A DNA stretch of 64,000 nucleotides from Rhodobacteraceae bacterium Alg238-R152 (lineage in GTDB: Bacteria; Pseudomonadota; Alphaproteobacteria; Rhodobacterales; Rhodobacteraceae). Positions 24,309-60,463 of this stretch are shown in pieces. The stretch is from contig UNRJ01000002.1 in assembly GCA_900537125.1 (NCBI GenBank), forward strand, positions 124,001-188,000, in the 5' to 3' direction. The notes beneath the pieces were generated by a model. The model worked only from the letters and a program-made list of their open reading frames with translations, was not told the origin of the DNA and searched no databases. The position numbers and the translations under genes are program-made. Every line of letters starts with the position of its first letter. Position 1 is the first letter of the stretch.

Positions 24309-24427
24309 ACGCTTCGGGGAAAACCGGAGCAGGGCCTCTGCCAAGGTCCTTAAACGCCTGACATTGCCACCATGGGGAAGGCTGATCGGATCAACCGGTC
24401 AGCACGTAAGCCATGGGAGAGCAGACA

Positions 24428-25054
24428 ATGGCACAGGCACAACAGGCAGAGGCGCATCTTGCGGCGCATGACATCAGAAGTTTGGATCTGAGCTGCGTGG
24501 CACGCGGCACTCAGATTGCCACGCGCCGTGGGGAAGTTCTGGTGGAAGAGCTTCAGGCTGGTGACGAGGTGGTCAGCCGTGACAAAGGTTTGACACCGGT
24601 GCGCTGGATTGGCCGTTTGGATGCTTCCAATGCACCTGTGAAAGTACCAGCAGGCGCCATGGGCCGTCGCGTGCCAGCGCGCGATTGCTGGCTGTCACCC
24701 GATGCACGGCTTTGGATGCAAGGTGCGGAGTTTGAGGCCGCGTTCACCTGCCGAGAGGTGTTGGTGCCGGTGAAAGATCTTATCGGCTGGCGGGGAATCA
24801 AGGAAGATCAAGCTGGCTCGTCGGAGTTTTTCCTTGTTCTGTGCGACACGCCTAGCGTGATGGTTGTGGATGGCATGCAAATAGAAATGCGTCATCCGGG
24901 CACGAGTCTGCGGCTGTTTGATAAGGTTCAGGCGGATGAAATGGCTGAGCTGTTCCCGGAATTGCTGGCCTTGGACAGCAAGTCTGATAAATGGCGCCGT
25001 CGCTTGGACAAGCATGAGGCGGCGCAGGTCACAGAAGTGAAAAAGCGGGCCTAA
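24428..25054 (+). CDS. Hint-domain protein (stand-alone)
   Basis: A 208-residue protein, nearly all one Hint (Hedgehog/intein) domain. It has a block-A-like LSCVARGTQIATRRGEVLVE with the candidate nucleophile Cys, then GDEVVSRDKGLTPVRWIG. The block-B position reads SPDARLWM, where intact relatives in this window have SPNHR or SPLHR, so the conserved histidine is absent. Full autoprocessing is therefore doubtful. Start is the ATG at 24428, with GGAGAG six bases upstream; ATG at 24413 lacks a site. Its stop codon overlaps the stop of the convergent YafY gene. Confidence 0.82.
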   Translation: MAQAQQAEAHLAAHDIRSLDLSCVARGTQIATRRGEVLVEELQAGDEVVSRDKGLTPVRWIGRLDASNAPVKVPAGAMGRRVPARDCWLSPDARLWMQGAEFEAAFTCREVLVPVKDLIGWRGIKEDQAGSSEFFLVLCDTPSVMVVDGMQIEMRHPGTSLRLFDKVQADEMAELFPELLALDSKSDKWRRRLDKHEAAQVTEVKKRA

Positions 25055-28432: not shown

Positions 28433-28446
28433 TTGACTAATGTCAA
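28433..28446. promoter_or_regulatory. Fnr/Dnr box upstream of nirS
   Basis: TTGACTAATGTCAA, a perfect TTGAC-N4-GTCAA palindrome whose centre is about 68 bp before the nirS ATG. That fits a class II activator site with transcription starting near 28481. The same perfect motif occurs at 43319. Confidence 0.82.
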
Positions 28447-28507
28447 GTTGATGACCCGTACATAGGCGCATTGTCCGCTTGCCTCACCAAGCAAACGGAG
28501 AGTGATC

Positions 28508-30181
28508 ATGTCACTTGGAACCACCCAAAAAATTCGTAAATCGCTCGGGATCGGCCTGGCCATGATGCTCGGCAGCGTTGCTGTTCCTGCATACGCCGAA
28601 GCGCCAATGCTCAGCGAAGAAAAATTCGAAGCGTCCAAACAAAAGTACTTTGAACAATGCGCAGGCTGCCACGGCGTACTGCGCAAGGGCGCAACCGGCA
28701 AAAGTCTTGAGCCAGTTGTAAAAGTCAAAAATGCTGACGGTTCCGTCACAGAGACGGGCACGCTGAAGCTGGGCCAAGAGCGCCTGGAAAAAATCATCGC
28801 CTGGGGTACCGAAGGCGGGATGAACAACTTCTCGGACATCATGACCGAAGAAGAAATCAAAGACATGGCGACCTACATCATGATGGATCCGCCAAAACCA
28901 CCGGAAATGTCTCTTGCTCAAATGAAAGAGACCCGGAAGGTTTATGTCGAAGAAGCTGACTACCCAACTGAGCCGCTCCATGGCCGCAACTGGGAAAACT
29001 TCTTCGTCGTCATCGAGCGTGACGTAGGTAAAGTGGCTGTGATTGACGGCGACACCAAAGAGGTGCTGACCCACATCCCAACCGGCTATGCTGTGCACGT
29101 TCTGAAAGCGTCTGAGCACCATGCCTTGGAAGAGCCTGAAAACCCAGGTCGCTTCTGGTACACAATGGGCCGCGACGGCAAGATGACCAAAATCGACCTC
29201 TGGCAGACTCCAGACAAGATGTTGGTTTCTGAAGTCAAGATTGCTTACGACGCACGTGACGTGGCCGTATCCGGCGACGGTAAATACGTGATTGGTGGCG
29301 GTTACTGGCCTCCACACTTCGCGATTGTTGACGCACAGACCATGGAGCCAGTCAAAGTTGTCTCCACACGTGGTACCAACGTTGACGGCGAGTACGTAGA
29401 AGAAGCCCGTGTGGCCGCGATCTACACCACACCAAACGAGCCAACATGGATCGTTGCGGTGAAAGAACTCGGTCAGCTGTGGCAGGTGGATTACACCGAC
29501 CTGGACAACCTGAAGATCGACAAGATCAACTCAGCGAAGTTCCTGCACGATGGGTTCTTTGATCCAACAGGCCGCTACTTCCAGATCGCTGCCAACGCGT
29601 CCAACAAAATGGTCGTTGTTGACACCGAAACTCACAAACTGGAAGCGATGATCGATACCGCCGCACTGCCACACCCTGGCCCAGGTGCGAACTGGATCGA
29701 CCCGAACTGTGGTCCAGTGGCTGGTACAACCCACCTTGGTGTTGGTGCTGTGACTGTCTGGGGCAACGACCCAGAAGGTCATCCTGACAACGCCTGGAAG
29801 GTCTGCTACGAAACCGAAACTGACGGCGCTGGCCTCTTCATTCGGACCCACCCAGAATCTGACTACATCTGGGCGGACCAAACCAAGCACCCTGAGCCTG
29901 AAATTCAGCAATCGGTGCAGGTCATTTCGAAAGAAACCGGTGAGATTGTGAAAACAATCCAGATCACTGAAGACGAAGGTTCTGCCGCTGTGCACTTTGA
30001 ATTCAATGCTGACGGTTCTGAGGTTTGGGTTTCCAAATGGAACCTCTCAGACTCTCTGGAGCCAAATGGTGAGATCGTGATCTTCGATGCCAAAACACTC
30101 GAAGAGATCGGCCGGATCAAAGGTCTGTTTGCTCCAACCGGTAAGTTCAACGTCTACAACCGTTCGAACCACGTGACCTAA
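28508..30181 (+). CDS. nirS: Cytochrome cd1 nitrite reductase
   Basis: Periplasmic enzyme that reduces nitrite to nitric oxide. The 557-residue precursor has a signal peptide (cleavage near VPAYA, residue 30). The cytochrome c domain has CAGCH at 51-55, and an eight-bladed haem-d1 propeller starts near residue 140. Its closing segment, ENDGAVI-like in NirN, here reads LSDSLEPNGEIVIFDAKTLEE. Start is the ATG at 28508 with GGAG upstream; a GTG two codons earlier would sit in that site. It heads the nir genes and is followed by a strong hairpin that should make it the most abundant message of the locus. Haem d1 is supplied by the downstream genes. Confidence 0.96.
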   Translation: MSLGTTQKIRKSLGIGLAMMLGSVAVPAYAEAPMLSEEKFEASKQKYFEQCAGCHGVLRKGATGKSLEPVVKVKNADGSVTETGTLKLGQERLEKIIAWGTEGGMNNFSDIMTEEEIKDMATYIMMDPPKPPEMSLAQMKETRKVYVEEADYPTEPLHGRNWENFFVVIERDVGKVAVIDGDTKEVLTHIPTGYAVHVLKASEHHALEEPENPGRFWYTMGRDGKMTKIDLWQTPDKMLVSEVKIAYDARDVAVSGDGKYVIGGGYWPPHFAIVDAQTMEPVKVVSTRGTNVDGEYVEEARVAAIYTTPNEPTWIVAVKELGQLWQVDYTDLDNLKIDKINSAKFLHDGFFDPTGRYFQIAANASNKMVVVDTETHKLEAMIDTAALPHPGPGANWIDPNCGPVAGTTHLGVGAVTVWGNDPEGHPDNAWKVCYETETDGAGLFIRTHPESDYIWADQTKHPEPEIQQSVQVISKETGEIVKTIQITEDEGSAAVHFEFNADGSEVWVSKWNLSDSLEPNGEIVIFDAKTLEEIGRIKGLFAPTGKFNVYNRSNHVT

Positions 30182-30204
30182 GGGTCAGATCGAAAATTCC
30201 CAAG

Positions 30205-30236
30205 GAGGGGCGGGCCAGGCGCCCGCCCCTCTGTTT
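30205..30236 (+). terminator. Terminator/attenuator after nirS
   Basis: GAGGGGCGGG (30205-30214) pairs perfectly with CCCGCCCCTC (30222-30231) around a 7-base loop, followed by TGTTTTT. It lies between nirS and nirT, which are in the same direction, so it probably lets only part of the transcription through. Confidence 0.9.
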
Positions 30237-30287
30237 TTCGCCGGTCCGCATTCAGGGACCGACCCACAGCCAAAACGGAGCATGGAC

Positions 30288-32108
30288 ATGTCGAAGTCCG
30301 ATGACCAAGAGCCAAAAGCCCCAATTTGGCGCCGCTATTTTATATGGGGAATGCCTCTCGCAGGTATCCTAGGCGTCTTTGTGGCCGGCATTATCTTCTG
30401 GGGTGGTTTCAACACCGCCATGGAAGCCACCAACAGCAAGGAATTCTGTGTGTCCTGTCACGAAATGGAAGATTTTGTGTATCAGGAATACAAAGGAACC
30501 ATTCACGATGTGAACCGTTCGGGCGTGGGCGCAGTCTGCTCAGACTGTCACGTGCCGAAAGACTGGACGCATAAGATCATCCGCAAGATCAAAGCGTCAC
30601 GTGAGGTCTGGGGCAAGATCACAGGCACCATCAACACACCGGAGAAATTTGATGCCAAGCGTCTTCATCTGGCGATGAACGAATGGCAGCGCATGAAAAA
30701 AACCGACTCGATTGAGTGCCGGAATTGCCACGACTTTGAGAGCATGATGCCGGAGTTTCAAAAACCTCGGGCGCGTGTGCAGCACTTGAATGCAATGAAA
30801 ACCGGCCAAACCTGTATCGACTGCCACAAAGGCATTGCGCACTCCAATGTGCGGGATCGCGCGGATGAGGAGTATCTGGAAGCGCTGGAAGCGCCAAACC
30901 CAGATTTCATTCGAGAAGTTCCCGCCGCGTATCTGGAAAGCCTGGCACGGATTGAAGCAATCGAAGCGGAAGAAGAGGCCGCCAAGAAAGCGGAAACTGC
31001 TGCTGCAAAAGAGAAGCTGAAGTCTGCGGTTGCAGCGGCACGTGCGGATGAGCGCGCCAAAGTGGAAGCGGAACTGGCCGCAGCCAATTCTGGCGGAGAT
31101 GCTGCTGCAGAACCGGCGGCGTCTGGTGACGCAGTTGGTGCCAACGTCAATTGGGACGGCATCGACAGTGCAGATTTGACCTTGTTCTACCCTGGTCAGG
31201 CCTCATTTGAATGGGTTCAAAACGGCGGCACACACGGTGGTGCCCGTCCTCTGACCAAAGGGGGCGATCAATGTACCACCTGTCACGCCAAAGAGCTCGA
31301 AACGATCGGAAACAAGATTGTTGCAGGCGGCGGCGGTAAGAAAGACGAACTGGAGCCAACCCCAATCCCAGGCAAACGCGGCACTATCCCTGCCACGCTG
31401 CAAGCGGCGCATGACGGTGAAAACGTCTACTTCCGCCTGCAATGGGAAGATGCTGGCCACAATCCGGCACCCTTTGTAGATGGCGGCAAGATGGACCCGG
31501 ACAATCAGGTCAAAGTTGGCATGATGATCACCGGCACTGGCATTGAAATGGGGGAACAGGTCGGTTGCTGGGCAACCTGTCACGCAGACAACACCTACAT
31601 GCCGTTTGCGCCCGATGCTGCCGGCTTGGCGGAAAATGGCGATGCTGTTGCACGTCTAGGTGTGAGCGACTCGATCACCAAATACCTGACCGAAAGCCGC
31701 ACCAAAGTGGAGGTCAAAGGCCGTCGCGGCAAAGCGCAGGGTGGCTGGGCCAACCTGAAGGAGCAGGGCGAAGTTGATCAACTGCTCGCAGACGGTGCCT
31801 TCATGGATCTGATGCGCGTCTATGCTGATGGCACCTCGGAAAATGGCTATCTTCTGGAAAGCCGGACTGTGAACGACGGCGAGATGGCGGGCGAAGCCAA
31901 TCTGTCGGTGGATGGCACCTGGACCGTCACCTTCTCTCGGCCATTGGTTGGTGGTGAAGGCGATGTCGCACTGGAAGCGGGCAAGACCTACACCGTGGGT
32001 TTTGCGATCCACGATGACTACTCAGATGCGCGGTTCCACCACGTCACACTCAATCTTGGGTTGGCGCTGGACAACGCGGATGCTGACATCAACGTTGTAG
32101 GCCAATAA
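30288..32108 (+). CDS. nirT: NirT/NapC-type tetrahaem cytochrome fused to an additional haem-binding domain
   Basis: Quinol-oxidising membrane cytochrome, expected to pass electrons to periplasmic nitrite reductase. Residues 15-45 form one transmembrane anchor. The NapC/NirT part has four haem motifs: CVSCH (54-58), CSDCH (84), CRNCH (144) and CIDCH (176). An Ala/Glu/Lys-rich coiled-coil linker (about 205-270) follows. The roughly 320-residue C-terminal domain has CTTCH (329) and an unusual CWATCH (427-432, CX3CH), and resembles the haem-binding EB_dh/DMSO-reductase gamma fold. At 606 residues it is about three times the usual NirT length. ATG at 30288 is preferred (GGAG seven bases upstream). 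Confidence 0.88.
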   Translation: MSKSDDQEPKAPIWRRYFIWGMPLAGILGVFVAGIIFWGGFNTAMEATNSKEFCVSCHEMEDFVYQEYKGTIHDVNRSGVGAVCSDCHVPKDWTHKIIRKIKASREVWGKITGTINTPEKFDAKRLHLAMNEWQRMKKTDSIECRNCHDFESMMPEFQKPRARVQHLNAMKTGQTCIDCHKGIAHSNVRDRADEEYLEALEAPNPDFIREVPAAYLESLARIEAIEAEEEAAKKAETAAAKEKLKSAVAAARADERAKVEAELAAANSGGDAAAEPAASGDAVGANVNWDGIDSADLTLFYPGQASFEWVQNGGTHGGARPLTKGGDQCTTCHAKELETIGNKIVAGGGGKKDELEPTPIPGKRGTIPATLQAAHDGENVYFRLQWEDAGHNPAPFVDGGKMDPDNQVKVGMMITGTGIEMGEQVGCWATCHADNTYMPFAPDAAGLAENGDAVARLGVSDSITKYLTESRTKVEVKGRRGKAQGGWANLKEQGEVDQLLADGAFMDLMRVYADGTSENGYLLESRTVNDGEMAGEANLSVDGTWTVTFSRPLVGGEGDVALEAGKTYTVGFAIHDDYSDARFHHVTLNLGLALDNADADINVVGQ

Positions 32109-32113
32109 ACTCC

Positions 32114-32146
32114 AAAACGGCGGCCGATATACTGGCCGCCGTTTTT
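32114..32146 (+). terminator. Terminator after nirT
   Basis: AAAACGGCGGCC (32114-32125) pairs perfectly with GGCCGCCGTTTT (32134-32145) around an 8-base loop and is followed by more T. It separates nirT from the cupredoxin gene. Confidence 0.9.
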
Positions 32147-32171: not shown

Positions 32172-32588
32172 ATGCTCAATCGGTTGACTGCTCTTGTTTT
32201 GCCTGTTTCGGTCGCGCTCTACGCGGCTTCGTCTGCTTTTGCAGATGAGGACACTGCGGCGCTCTGCTCTGAGGCTGAAGAGCGCTATGTCGAAATGTTT
32301 GGTGCTCCGTCAGCTGATGCCGAAGGTGTGGTTGTGGTGAAGATGTACAAATACAATTTCTGCCCCGCCACCATTACTGTTCCAGTTGGCACAACCGTGC
32401 GTTGGGCCAACGTCGACAAGCGCACCAGCCACAGCGTGAAAGTGCCAGATGAACCTGAAAGTGATCGGGCCTTCCCTGAAGAAGTGATCGAGTTCACATT
32501 CCTGATCGAAGGCGATCAAGATTATCTGTGTGGCCCCCATTGGGAGACCCAAAAAATGATTGGCATGGTCACGGTAGTGGCTGAATAG
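32172..32588 (+). CDS. Periplasmic cupredoxin (probable electron donor in denitrification)
   Basis: A 138-residue small blue copper-type protein. The signal peptide has cleavage near SSAFA, residue 24. The plastocyanin/azurin core has ligands His87 (TSHSVKV), Cys120, His123 (YLCGPHWE) and Met129 or Met132. It has an N-terminal extension containing one extra Cys (residue 32), possibly paired with Cys64 in YNFCPATI. Its place between nirT and nirE suggests it shuttles electrons to NirS, alongside or instead of cytochrome c551. It is not clearly azurin or pseudoazurin by sequence. ATG at 32172 has GGAAGGAAG upstream. Bounded by hairpins on both sides. Confidence 0.85.
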   Translation: MLNRLTALVLPVSVALYAASSAFADEDTAALCSEAEERYVEMFGAPSADAEGVVVVKMYKYNFCPATITVPVGTTVRWANVDKRTSHSVKVPDEPESDRAFPEEVIEFTFLIEGDQDYLCGPHWETQKMIGMVTVVAE

Positions 32589-43318: not shown

Positions 43319-43332
43319 TTGACCATGGTCAA
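43319..43332. promoter_or_regulatory. Perfect Fnr/Dnr box between norF and the small membrane pair
   Basis: TTGACCATGGTCAA, perfectly palindromic. The centre lies about 63 bp from the ATG at 43262, and a TTACAG -10-like hexamer on the minus strand lies near 43292-43297, fitting a class II site. It gives the small pair its own promoter independent of norC. Confidence 0.78.
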
Positions 43333-56307: not shown

Positions 56308-57411
56308 CTAGGCAGCCCGCTGTGCCGCCAGAGTAAGCGCGTCAAACTCCCGCAAAACCGGAAACGCGGTGCGGGCGTGCTCAGGCAACAGTCTTCGTGG
56401 ATACCCAGACAACAAGCTGGCGCTCAACAGATCATGCCGCCGCCGCATGCGCCCGACGTCTATGCTTTCCACATAGGTGTCCGCTGCCAACATGGCCTCG
56501 TGATCCGGCAAAAGCAGCTGACTATAGGTCACCAATGGCGCGTTACCGATGCTGGTTGCCGCGTTGCCATGCAGTAGATGGCCGGCCGGGATCAAAACGA
56601 ATTCTGATCCAAACGTGTATTCCACCCGGCTGCCACCAATCAAAAGGCGCTGCGTCGGGCTGGTCACGATGTCGCGGCTCAAACCAAAGAACGGTGCGCG
56701 TAGTCGGATTGGCGCAAAATGCCCTGCTGCAGGCACTGTGCGACGCAGGTTTGCCAAGACAGGCACAAGATCACCAGAGGGCGTTTGAACCACATCTCCG
56801 CGCTTCAACTCCCCAACTTTGCGGTAGCCCCGTGCTGTCATGACAGGCGTTTCTTCCGCAAGGCTTGGCATCGGACCAATGGGTTCAATTCGGTTGGAAA
56901 ACGCAATGTAGGTGAGATCACTGGAGATCACGCGCGCGTCGTCATTCTGCACAGCTTCCCGTATTTCAGCCGAGGTTAGAGCTACGGGGCGAGACAATGT
57001 ACGAAAAGCCACCCGCCATGTCCCCGGTTGCTCCACCGCCAGTCTGCCCACACCAGCCTGCAGGTCCCATGAATAGGTCACACGCAACACATCTGCCCGT
57101 CCGCCGGTGTCCAGATTGACCGCGACATGGGCTGTGCGGCCGTCGCGATTCAACACCAAGACAACGCCGCCTCCCGGGACGGCTTGCAGCGACAAGCGGA
57201 AGTCACTCCCGGTTTGAGAGGCGATGCCCAAAAGCGTTTGTGGCCGGTCATAAGGAGAAACGCGTGTTTCTATGACCATGCTGCCACATGACAGCTCACA
57301 GGCGGGCGCTGCCGCCTCAACCATATCTGAGCCAGATGGTGCACGAAGGAGCGCAATGCCATTTGGATGATACAACGAGCGATTTTCATCCCATAGGGCG
57401 ATCCAGCTCAT
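56308..57411 (-). CDS. LamG-like/Hint-domain protein with degenerate catalytic residues
   Basis: A 367-residue protein. Residues 1-190 look like a beta-rich concanavalin/LamG-type domain (MVIETRVSPYDRPQTLLGIA, FRLSLQAVPGGGVVLVLNRD). Residues about 195-345 form a Hint domain recognised by GYRKVGELKRGDVVQTPSGD, IRLRAPFFG, and SPTQRLLIGG. The block-A nucleophile position reads SLAEETPVMT (Ser instead of Cys) and block B has Gln in place of His. It is likely unable to self-process, or uses a Ser. 40 bp downstream of the next Hint gene on the same strand. Confidence 0.8.
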   Translation of the reverse strand: MSWIALWDENRSLYHPNGIALLRAPSGSDMVEAAAPACELSCGSMVIETRVSPYDRPQTLLGIASQTGSDFRLSLQAVPGGGVVLVLNRDGRTAHVAVNLDTGGRADVLRVTYSWDLQAGVGRLAVEQPGTWRVAFRTLSRPVALTSAEIREAVQNDDARVISSDLTYIAFSNRIEPIGPMPSLAEETPVMTARGYRKVGELKRGDVVQTPSGDLVPVLANLRRTVPAAGHFAPIRLRAPFFGLSRDIVTSPTQRLLIGGSRVEYTFGSEFVLIPAGHLLHGNAATSIGNAPLVTYSQLLLPDHEAMLAADTYVESIDVGRMRRRHDLLSASLLSGYPRRLLPEHARTAFPVLREFDALTLAAQRAA

Positions 57412-57451: not shown

Positions 57452-59026
57452 TCAGCACGCCTCTTGAAACGCGATTTGTGACAGCGTGGCCACCTCAAAG
57501 CTGCGCAAGCCGCGCCGCGCCATTGGTCCGTACCCCGTGCCTGAAATCGGATCGAGTTCCGGGAAAATCGCACAGATCTCGGCGACAATCTCCGGTTCAA
57601 AACAACTCGCCGTTTGCGGGCCCGGAAGGTAGCTTTCGGTCATCAGTTTTTCTGAGAAGACGATTTGGTGGTCGTCAAAAAGCAGATGTACGTATTCCAC
57701 CTCGCCGCCAGGCACACGGCGGATGGTCTTGTCGTTCACCAGATCCCGCGCCGCCACCAAAACCTCTTCTTCACCAAACAACAACTCCGCCCAAGCGTTG
57801 CGGATCAGCACGCGGTGCAGAGGTGACAACAAAAGTTCGCGATGCGGGCCCAGCGTGTTGGCCATAATGCGGATCGGGGCCATGCCACCGGTGGCGGAAA
57901 CCTTGCGCCGCCCGATCCAGCGCACCGGCTGTGGGCCGTTGTCTAAGGTTTCGACCATGTCCCCAACATTGAGACATTCGATAGGTACCTCACCATGGGG
58001 GGTGCGTATAAAGGTACCCACGGTAAAGCAGGGCGCTTGGTTGATCTTGATGTACCCAACATCGGATTTCCCGTTGCCGTCATCAATTGTGTAAGTGAGA
58101 TTGACCTGTTCTTCGTCGCTGTCACCCTCAAAGGTGATTGTCCCGTCGGCATTGACGGTGATGATCTGCCCGCTCGGGAGAGTTATCGGTGAGCCAGCGG
58201 TGACAGGTTGACCGGAAATATGCGTGATGGTGAGCGCATTCCCGGTGTCATTTACATCATTGGCCAGCACGTCGACGGTACGTGTGCCATCAATTGGCAG
58301 GTTCACTTCGTCGGTGTTTGCAATGAGTGACGTTTGGACTGAATCCGCTGCGATCAACAGTGAACTGTCATATTGGCTGTCCGACACATCAGCGACAACA
58401 ATGCGGATGTCATTCATACCTTCGACGATGTCAAAGGTCAGTGTCATGGTGATGGTAAACCCATCCATTTCGGTATTGTAGTTGCCGCCGGTGTTGTCGA
58501 CAAACATGCTTTCGTTGTCACCGGTGTTGATGTTGCCGGGGTCCACATCACCATTACCAATTTCAAGCGGCACATAGCTGCCGTTGATCGAGACCGCGAC
58601 AAAATCCTGATAAACTGAGCTGACGTATTCCGGGTATTCTTCGGAGGCAAAGACAAATTGCATCGTCATCTGCCCGGCTTCATTTGCGATGAAGGACACA
58701 TCCAGATACGAGGCATCATAGGTGTTGGTCCCGGCCACCGCGTTGAATTCGGAGTTGTTGTCCTCGCCATTGGTATCGGAGGACCGGTTGGTGCGCTGGT
58801 TGTATCCCCCCCATCGGTTGGTGAAGTGGTTGGCTTTACCGGTTGAAAGGATCACCCCTTCATCGCTGGGAGTCACACCGGGGGACACGCTGTCGCCATT
58901 GGAATAAATGCCCGAAGACGAGTTTTGTCCATTGTAAGACGCGGACACGATGGTGACGTCGTCACTAAAAATGGTCTGCGCCATTTCAATCGCGGATGCG
59001 CCGGTATCTACGGGCATTTTGGGCAT
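57452..59026 (-). CDS. Choice-of-anchor-type protein with C-terminal Hint domain (intact catalytic residues), second copy
   Basis: A 524-residue paralogue of the 53990-55570 gene with the same layout: choice-of-anchor L-like N-terminal domain (FVFASEEYPEYVSSVYQDF), Asp-rich repeat (TRTVDVLANDVNDTGNALT), and Hint domain (APCFTVGTFIRTPHGE, LLSPLHRVLI, GYGPMARRGLRSFEV). Both the block-A Cys and block-B His are present. Start is the ATG at 59026; a longer frame to 60001 runs antisense into dapE and is rejected. The two genes have the same length and order, so they arose by duplication; the degenerate Hint gene lies between them. Confidence 0.85.
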   Translation of the reverse strand: MPKMPVDTGASAIEMAQTIFSDDVTIVSASYNGQNSSSGIYSNGDSVSPGVTPSDEGVILSTGKANHFTNRWGGYNQRTNRSSDTNGEDNNSEFNAVAGTNTYDASYLDVSFIANEAGQMTMQFVFASEEYPEYVSSVYQDFVAVSINGSYVPLEIGNGDVDPGNINTGDNESMFVDNTGGNYNTEMDGFTITMTLTFDIVEGMNDIRIVVADVSDSQYDSSLLIAADSVQTSLIANTDEVNLPIDGTRTVDVLANDVNDTGNALTITHISGQPVTAGSPITLPSGQIITVNADGTITFEGDSDEEQVNLTYTIDDGNGKSDVGYIKINQAPCFTVGTFIRTPHGEVPIECLNVGDMVETLDNGPQPVRWIGRRKVSATGGMAPIRIMANTLGPHRELLLSPLHRVLIRNAWAELLFGEEEVLVAARDLVNDKTIRRVPGGEVEYVHLLFDDHQIVFSEKLMTESYLPGPQTASCFEPEIVAEICAIFPELDPISGTGYGPMARRGLRSFEVATLSQIAFQEAC

Positions 59027-59317
59027 GTCTGCTCGCCTCTTTTTTGCGCGAGGCACGCCACACAGCAACGCCCGCCTGTAAAAGGGCGCAAAACAGGTCT
59101 CAGCACACATTTTTGTGTGTCTTGGGAAACCTTTGGCTGTTGAAGCCGAACTGCTGGTGACCTGCCTCGGTCGATTATTATTAATCGTAAGTAAACAGCA
59201 TATCTTTCCGCTTGTTAAGAGGCGCCGCACCGCTTTGTGTCCGAAATGTGGCTTTCCGGTCAGGCGTGGCTGTGCCACAACTCTTTCAAAACACTTGTGA
59301 CTCAAAGGATGCCCGTC

Positions 59318-60463
59318 ATGACCAAAACCGATGCCGCACAGGTGACCGCAGATCTGATCCGATGTGCCTCTGTGACGCCGGAAGAGGGGGGAGCACTTGT
59401 GTTGCTGGAAAAGTTGCTCTCGGGCGCTGGGTTTGACTGCACCCGCGTGGACCGTGGCGACGTCAGCAACCTGTTTGCCCGCTGGGGTCGCAAAGGCGAC
59501 AGCAAAACCTTTGGCTTCAATGGCCACACCGATGTGGTGCCTGTCGGTGACGAAGCTGCTTGGACGGTTGATCCCTTTGGCGCAGAAGTGAAAGACGGCA
59601 TCATGTACGGTCGTGGCGCGACCGATATGAAATCCGGCGTTGCCACTTTTGCCGCCGCCGCCATTGATTTTGTCTCTAACACACCGCCGGAAGGCGCGAT
59701 CATCCTCACCATCACTGGGGATGAAGAAGGCGACGCCATCGACGGCACCACCGCGCTTCTGGACTATATGTCCACAGAACAGGAACGCATGTCTGTCTGT
59801 CTGGTGGGCGAGCCAACTTGCCCCAACGAGATGGGTGAGATGATGAAAATTGGCCGTCGCGGCTCGATGACCGCCTATTTCACCTTCACCGGCAAACAAG
59901 GCCACTCCGCTTATCCGCACCGCGCCAACAACCCGCTTCCGGTGATGGCGCGCCTGATGGATCAATTCAGCTCTGAACCGCTGGACAATGGCACCGATCA
60001 TTTTGATGCCTCAACTTTGGCAATCGTCACCATGGACACCGGCAACCCGGCCACCAATGTGATCCCGGCGGAATGCAAAGCCACGCTCAACATCCGGTTT
60101 AATGACTCCCATTCCGGCGCGTCCCTCACTGAGTGGATGCAGACAAAAGCAGACACTATTTCGGCTGAAACCGGTGTTGGCATCGACATGAAGGTCACCA
60201 TCTCCGGTGAGAGCTTCATCACCCCTCCAGGGGCTTTGTCCGAACTGGTTGCCACCTCTGTGGAAGCGGAAACCGGGCGTCGCCCCGAACTCTCCACCTC
60301 TGGCGGCACTTCGGACGCCCGCTTTGTGCAGCATCACTGCCCGGTGGTGGAATTTGGCCTCGTGGGCAAAACCATGCACCAAGTTGACGAACAGGTGCCG
60401 GTTGCACAAATCCATCAGCTGAAAGACATCTACAGCCGCATTTTGCGAGACTATTTTGCCTAA
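59318..60463 (+). CDS. dapE: Succinyl-diaminopimelate desuccinylase
   Basis: Zinc peptidase-fold enzyme that removes succinate from N-succinyl-LL-DAP. The 381-residue protein has the M20 metal motifs [38 protein letters not shown] and, near the end, [13 protein letters not shown] dimerisation domain with [15 protein letters not shown] is present. Start is the ATG at 59318 with AAAGGA upstream, not the ATG at 59309 that overlaps that site. The downstream DUF2064 gene overlaps its end. Confidence 0.95.

Follow-up and report, generated by a model that had tools for sequence, protein, structure and literature searches.

The closest described counterparts of the protein considered here are NirT and NirB of Stutzerimonas, a tetrahaem NapC/NirT protein and a dihaem cytochrome encoded right after nirS, the gene for cytochrome cd1 nitrite reductase. 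Excerpts of PMC13086519, a paper of 2026, give the gene order nirSTBM for Pseudomonas stutzeri (mono-, di- and tetrahaem proteins), tie nirTB to NirS clade 1b in Stutzerimonas and report that NirT is required for nitrite reduction in strain ZoBell. They also name a fused NirTB for Halomonas sp. 2A, citing Li et al. 2018. We analyzed a gene that likewise stands right after nirS in a 64,000-nucleotide stretch of Rhodobacteraceae bacterium Alg238-R152 (contig UNRJ01000002.1, positions 124,001 to 188,000; hereafter the window). It differs from the nirSTBM arrangement in that both cytochromes form one polypeptide and a cupredoxin gene takes the place of nirM. The likeness to the Halomonas protein is one of name and description only. 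Because a fused NirTB has been mentioned before, the fusion is not new in kind, and the window gene is a further instance of a reported form. The literature searched contained no other paper with the term NirTB and no account of the distribution of NirTB in roseobacters; none of the matches listed was a paper naming NirT in these bacteria. To our knowledge, it has been settled for only a few organisms which donors supply cytochrome cd1 with electrons in vivo.

The open reading frame (ORF) encodes a membrane protein with six predicted c-haem sites that joins the partner cytochromes NirT and NirB. We consider it probable (roughly 75%) that the fusion oxidizes quinol and passes electrons to the cupredoxin and NirS without cytochrome bc1. 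The NirT part, a membrane-anchored tetrahaem quinol dehydrogenase of the kind common to NapC, CymA and ImcH, would oxidize quinol. If all six sites are occupied by haem, the tethered NirB part, a putative dihaem cytochrome with the EB_dh fold, would then take up the electrons on its two haems. This part would relay them to NirS and to the neighboring cupredoxin, the presumed last carrier. With electrons flowing in that direction and order, NirS would gain a route independent of cytochrome bc1. The gene and its parts are as follows (residue numbers refer to the full ORF).

30282..32108, + strand: NirT-NirB fusion gene, 608 aa, six c-haem motifs, intact open frame
30366..30848, + strand: NapC/NirT tetrahaem domain, residues 29-189 (Pfam Cytochrom_NNT)
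30447..30461, + strand: haem motif 1, CVSCH, residues 56-60
30537..30551, + strand: haem motif 2, CSDCH, residues 86-90
30717..30731, + strand: haem motif 3, CRNCH, residues 146-150
30813..30827, + strand: haem motif 4, CIDCH, residues 178-182
30924..31085, + strand: charged helical linker, residues 215-268 (AlphaFold2, AF2), variable among relatives
31155..32105, + strand: NirB-type EB_dh domain, residues 292-608 (Pfam, AF2, Foldseek)
31272..31286, + strand: haem motif 5, CTTCH, residues 331-335
31566..31583, + strand: haem motif 6, CWATCH (CX3CH), residues 429-434
32010..32012, + strand: H577, candidate haem ligand, invariant in 28 aligned NirB-type domains
32037..32039, + strand: H586, candidate ligand of the haem at the EB_dh site, invariant in the 28 NirB-type domains and equally in EB_dh relatives that lack Cys motifs

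A preliminary description of the window had placed the start at 30288. This is an in-frame ATG two codons inside the ORF, which opens at 30282; the frame stands, and residues 427-432 of that description are 429-434 here. Its central proposal, a NapC/NirT part fused to a second c-haem-type domain related to EB_dh, is borne out by Pfam and by motif conservation. Cytochrom_NNT (PF03264) matches residues 29-189 (E 1.6e-70, 236.8 bits against a cut-off of 24.1), and together with the N-terminal helix and four CX2CH motifs this places the first part in the NapC/NirT family; a predicted helix (AF2, residues 15-52) contains the membrane anchor. The profile search suggested for the C-terminal part came out positive, with EB_dh (PF09459) matching residues 347-588 (E 4.7e-28, 99.3 bits against a gathering cut-off of 33.3), and EB_dh membership is further supported by the fold (Foldseek match to EbdC, below). 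Two NCBIfam models stayed below their curated cut-offs: TIGR02161, the full-length model of the napC_nirT subfamily (262.7 against 310.6 bits), and TIGR03477, the haem b gamma subunit of type II dimethyl sulfoxide (DMSO) reductases (29.8 bits for the C-terminal part and 27.9 for the whole protein, against 169.85). Both parts lie in one open frame beside nirS, and no signal peptide is seen between them. The linker is predicted by AF2 to be one long helix in the window protein, despite which its sequence is unconserved among relatives; the distance between haem motifs 4 and 5 is 101-156 residues in 89 proteins, and the linker is Pro/Ala-rich in some. The window genome has one full copy of the fusion and one further NapC-type match.

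Judging from gene order, motifs and annotation, the most fitting identity for the second part is NirB, the dihaem cytochrome whose gene follows nirT in P. stutzeri. This reading follows from unfused sets of nirS, nirT and an EB_dh gene, from the published nirSTBM order and from the annotation of a P. stutzeri protein. At one unfused locus (L188) the order is nirS, nirT, a gene for an EB_dh protein (CAACH + CWASCH), an ORF for a NirM-like protein (144 aa, one CXXCH), nirC, F, D, L, G, H, J, E and N, which fits both nirSTBM and the cluster name nirMCFDLGH given in a partly available source. A second locus (L189) has nirS, nirT and the EB_dh gene consecutive and unfused, so that in both a two-motif cytochrome is encoded after nirT within the nirS cluster. 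A further locus (L199, same place as L027) combines nirT with an EB_dh ORF whose start resembles a signal peptide. In P. stutzeri RCH2, Psest_0817, two tags past nirS (Psest_0815), is annotated as ethylbenzene dehydrogenase (excerpts of PMC5554334). Searching plasmid records for a named standalone NirB gave five records, all of them fused.

Separate nirT and nirB genes in other genomes raise the question of whether a frameshift or an assembly error joined two genes in the window, as the preliminary description itself had considered. Scanning of genome contigs gave 370 candidate stretches, of which 363 were confirmed as coding for relatives of the C-terminal part, and the best 80 of these 363 were kept as loci. 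All 80 carry the six motifs (five CX2CH and one CWxxCH) in one open frame, and in all 80 the order is nirS, fusion, cupredoxin on one strand. Among their sources are Shimia, Ruegeria, Aliiroseovarius, Pelagimonas, Roseibium and Pseudovibrio. The fusion is also present in genomes of other classes (G530, G531, G328), and more distant fused copies occur on an Azospirillum plasmid and in other families and classes (L196-L198, L200-L202). Since the same single-frame fusion recurs throughout the 80 loci, a chance or assembly join is excluded, and we regard this explanation as refuted. The proposed linkage of the fusion to nirS and the cupredoxin is supported by the same loci.

24 fused rows fall on one side of a branch in the tree of NirB domains (91/88; 90% of bootstrap trees). 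The tree of NirT domains requires three changes, and in no bootstrap tree do its fused rows form one group; its starred branches, however, require no more than a single change, and the rows that fall out of place sit on long branches. For these reasons a single origin of the fusion is favored, though not shown, by the domain sequences. Several independent fusions are disfavored by the NirB-domain tree, while the NirT-domain tree does not group the fused rows.

The fusion co-occurs with one type of NirS. In a sample of 198 genomes of the family, nine have a NirS that shares 83% identity or more with that of the window, and all nine have the domain (E <1e-100), compared with none at this threshold among 28 genomes with only a 45-48% identical NirS; one of the 28 (G179) gives a weak EB_dh match (E 7.7e-4). 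The domain also lies at a contig end in a tenth genome (G162), whose NirS-type matches are all weak. Weak NirS-type matches alone were found in G110, G197, G240 and G245, and only weaker domain matches in G060, G156, G179 and G180. In a sample of 60 relatives, five of them shared with the family sample (G000, G027, G028, G029, G034), 12 genomes have a NirS with at least 72% identity, each together with the fusion, which a contig end truncates in G019; the five genomes with other NirS only have neither the fusion nor any NapC/NirT match. Within the two samples the fusion was found only alongside one NirS type. The published link between nirTB and clade 1b agrees with this, the window NirS being grouped here by percent identity only.

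In a third sample, of 397 genomes of the phylum, 46 have a NirS at E 1e-60 or better. Among the nine closest to the window NirS, six have the fusion, two have unfused nirT-nirB beside nirS, and the ninth is G345. The other 37 comprise 27 without an EB_dh match at E 1e-3, eight with weak matches (E 8.4e-7 or worse) and two with stronger ones, which in G405 is an EB_dh type of 483 aa and in G486 a nirT-nirB pair (L190). By positions among the matches listed, no EB_dh match lies closer than about 124 kb to nirS on the nirS contig in these 37, the first look at this sample having scored five candidates per genome at most.

Several observations weigh against the proposed electron route. The 80 loci were selected by the domain, which makes their gene order conditional on it. 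Shared descent also enters the co-occurrence counts, related genomes not being separate events. No cupredoxin match at E 1e-4 was obtained at one fused locus (L197) or at the unfused L188 and L189. Finally, G345 (L207, 9796-12077) has a close NirS (68%) with the cupredoxin directly next to it and no NirT-NirB between them, so the fusion is not indispensable. The same genome, which has three NapC-type matches elsewhere, suggests a core made up of cupredoxin and NirS, with NirTB dispensable and perhaps replaced by another NapC.

The preliminary description had further supposed that the extra domain replaces a soluble cytochrome. This holds in part: the cupredoxin gene stands where the NirM-like ORF stands in L188, and a soluble carrier is still present. 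The carrier thus appears to be swapped rather than lost.

The main rival of respiratory electron delivery is NirS activation, in which the fusion would mainly activate or mature NirS, by reductive activation or by supplying electrons for d1 loading with NirN/NirF, and not sustain steady respiratory flow. NapC is reported, in a source available in part, to activate cytochrome cd1. Considering matched genes only, a NirN-type gene is the next one past the cupredoxin at three loci (L054, L058, L109), and the Azospirillum locus (L122) has a second D1-domain gene past the cupredoxin. However, every cd1 enzyme known to us requires d1 loading, yet the fusion is absent from all 28 family-sample genomes with only the other NirS. 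We consider activation improbable as the main role.

Quinol-driven electron delivery also draws on the conservation of the haem sites in the NirB part. An alignment of 28 NirB-type domains from both fused and unfused proteins, which did not include a more distant EB_dh group, has CWxxCH in all 28; invariant positions include both cysteine motifs, W430, M440, H577, R584 and H586. The distant group, comprising six loci, has CWxxCH in five (L191, L192, L194, L203, L205) and CFLSCH in one (L195). The CX3CH motif is therefore a family trait and not, as had first been thought, an oddity of the window protein; the residues that the preliminary description had numbered C427, C431 and H432, and whose survey it had suggested, are conserved in the relatives aligned. 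Nor did the idea of special maturation find support: the genome has one CcmF_C match and no second, CcmF_C being the sole family searched. Among the matches listed, the partly available literature searched contained no mention of a conserved CX3CH in NirB. An atypical CX3CH is reported for ImcH and two CymA homologues (excerpts of PMC6295460), where it adjoins the membrane helix, whereas in the window protein it lies in the added domain. As a side observation, four loci of the distant group (L191, L194, L203, L205) have ORFs of 472-496 aa with CXXCH plus CWLxCH or CWITCH, and no nirS match was found in the fetched stretches.

The first haem segment of NirB weakly resembles cytochrome c'' (E 0.046 and 0.024), and in one of eight proteins scanned (the L188 NirB ORF, residues 111-136) it matches DUF1924 (PF09086; 25.5 against 22.5 bits). 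Cytochrome c''/DUF1924-type proteins include ligand-binding haems. The NirB part might accordingly dock NirS, or sense nitric oxide or nitrite through a gas-binding haem, instead of acting as a relay. This is quite unlikely in our estimate, as the invariant candidate ligands M440, H577 and H586 would suit six-coordinate electron transfer haems.

The AF2 model has a mean predicted local distance difference test score of 79.7 for the whole protein and 88.2 for the NirB part. The best Foldseek match of the NirB model in the PDB is EbdC (2ivf_C, E 2.5e-9, template modelling (TM) score 0.40 by query length), followed by NxrC (7b04_C, E 8.2e-8, TM 0.29 by query length), both TM-scores being modest. 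These gamma subunits of the EB_dh/type II DMSO reductase kind have the fold in common with the NirB part; they hold one b-type haem, in contrast to the two c-type motifs and nir neighbors of the window protein. Haem b of NxrC is held by Met155 and Lys305, as in ethylbenzene dehydrogenase (excerpts of PMC8387239). Three EB_dh relatives (L137, L164, L139) have no Cys motif at all, and a fourth (L173, 1492-2541, - strand) has a single CMTSCH (CX3CH) and no CXXCH. H586 is kept in 10 of 10 rows of the comparison that includes these relatives, and the position of M440 is not Met in any of these four, which suggests that the CX3CH haem may occupy the former haem b site, H586 being one of its ligands. 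Profile alignments break or gap in the stretches decisive for residue-by-residue mapping of haem b ligands, and the placement of ligands from sequence is to that extent an interpretation. Only tentatively, and below even odds, do we extend the electron delivery reading to a six-haem quinol:cupredoxin/NirS oxidoreductase serving one NirS clade, in which the CX3CH haem (H434 + H586) would occupy the pocket that holds haem b in EB_dh proteins, but as a covalently bound c-type haem.

The neighborhood of the fusion includes the following elements.

28433..28446, + strand: FNR-type box TTGACTAATGTCAA before nirS, no mismatch
28502..30181, + strand: nirS, cytochrome cd1 nitrite reductase (Pfam: c haem domain and Cytochrom_D1)
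30204..30232, + strand: strong terminator-like hairpin between nirS and the fusion (hairpin scan)
32114..32145, + strand: strong terminator-like hairpin between the fusion and the cupredoxin gene (hairpin scan)
32172..32588, + strand: cupredoxin (Pfam; alignment)
43319-43332: second FNR-type box, no mismatch, 0.8 kb from a group of ORFs with NorQ- and NorB-type domains

Pfam supports nir-cluster domains for nirS, nirC, nirF and the cupredoxin; the genes past the cupredoxin we take, by order and similarity, to be nirE, C, F, DL, G, H, J and N. The H...CGPH...M of the cupredoxin is presumably the Cu ligand pattern. Two extra cysteines, one ahead of the E/KAE..Y stretch and one in FCP, are conserved in 17 of 19 aligned cupredoxins (L196 and L198 are without them). 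The hairpin scan as a whole gave 7 sites against 6.0 in shuffles. By a stricter test, hairpins occur past nirS in 30 of the 80 loci and past the fusion in 30, mononucleotide shuffles giving 0.8 and 2.0 per set. A point mutation located between nirS and nirT is common to evolved clones that denitrify completely (excerpts of PMC6584980). The window also encodes three Hint_2-domain proteins (24413-25054, 56308-57411, 57452-60001), one of them upstream of the nir cluster, and a Ruegeria plasmid has a Hint-domain gene beside nor and nir genes.

The set of nirS, NirTB and cupredoxin is constant in many marine roseobacters and, within our samples, goes with a single NirS type, which points to electron donation by a route that bypasses cytochrome bc1. 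The finding is relevant to nitrite accumulation, a trait that excerpts of the 2026 Stutzerimonas paper (PMC13086519) tentatively link to nirTB. With its conserved CX3CH, the NirB family lends itself to testing how c-haem is attached to a longer motif. If the proposed origin of its haem site is true, the family would record a change from b-type to c-type haem within one fold.
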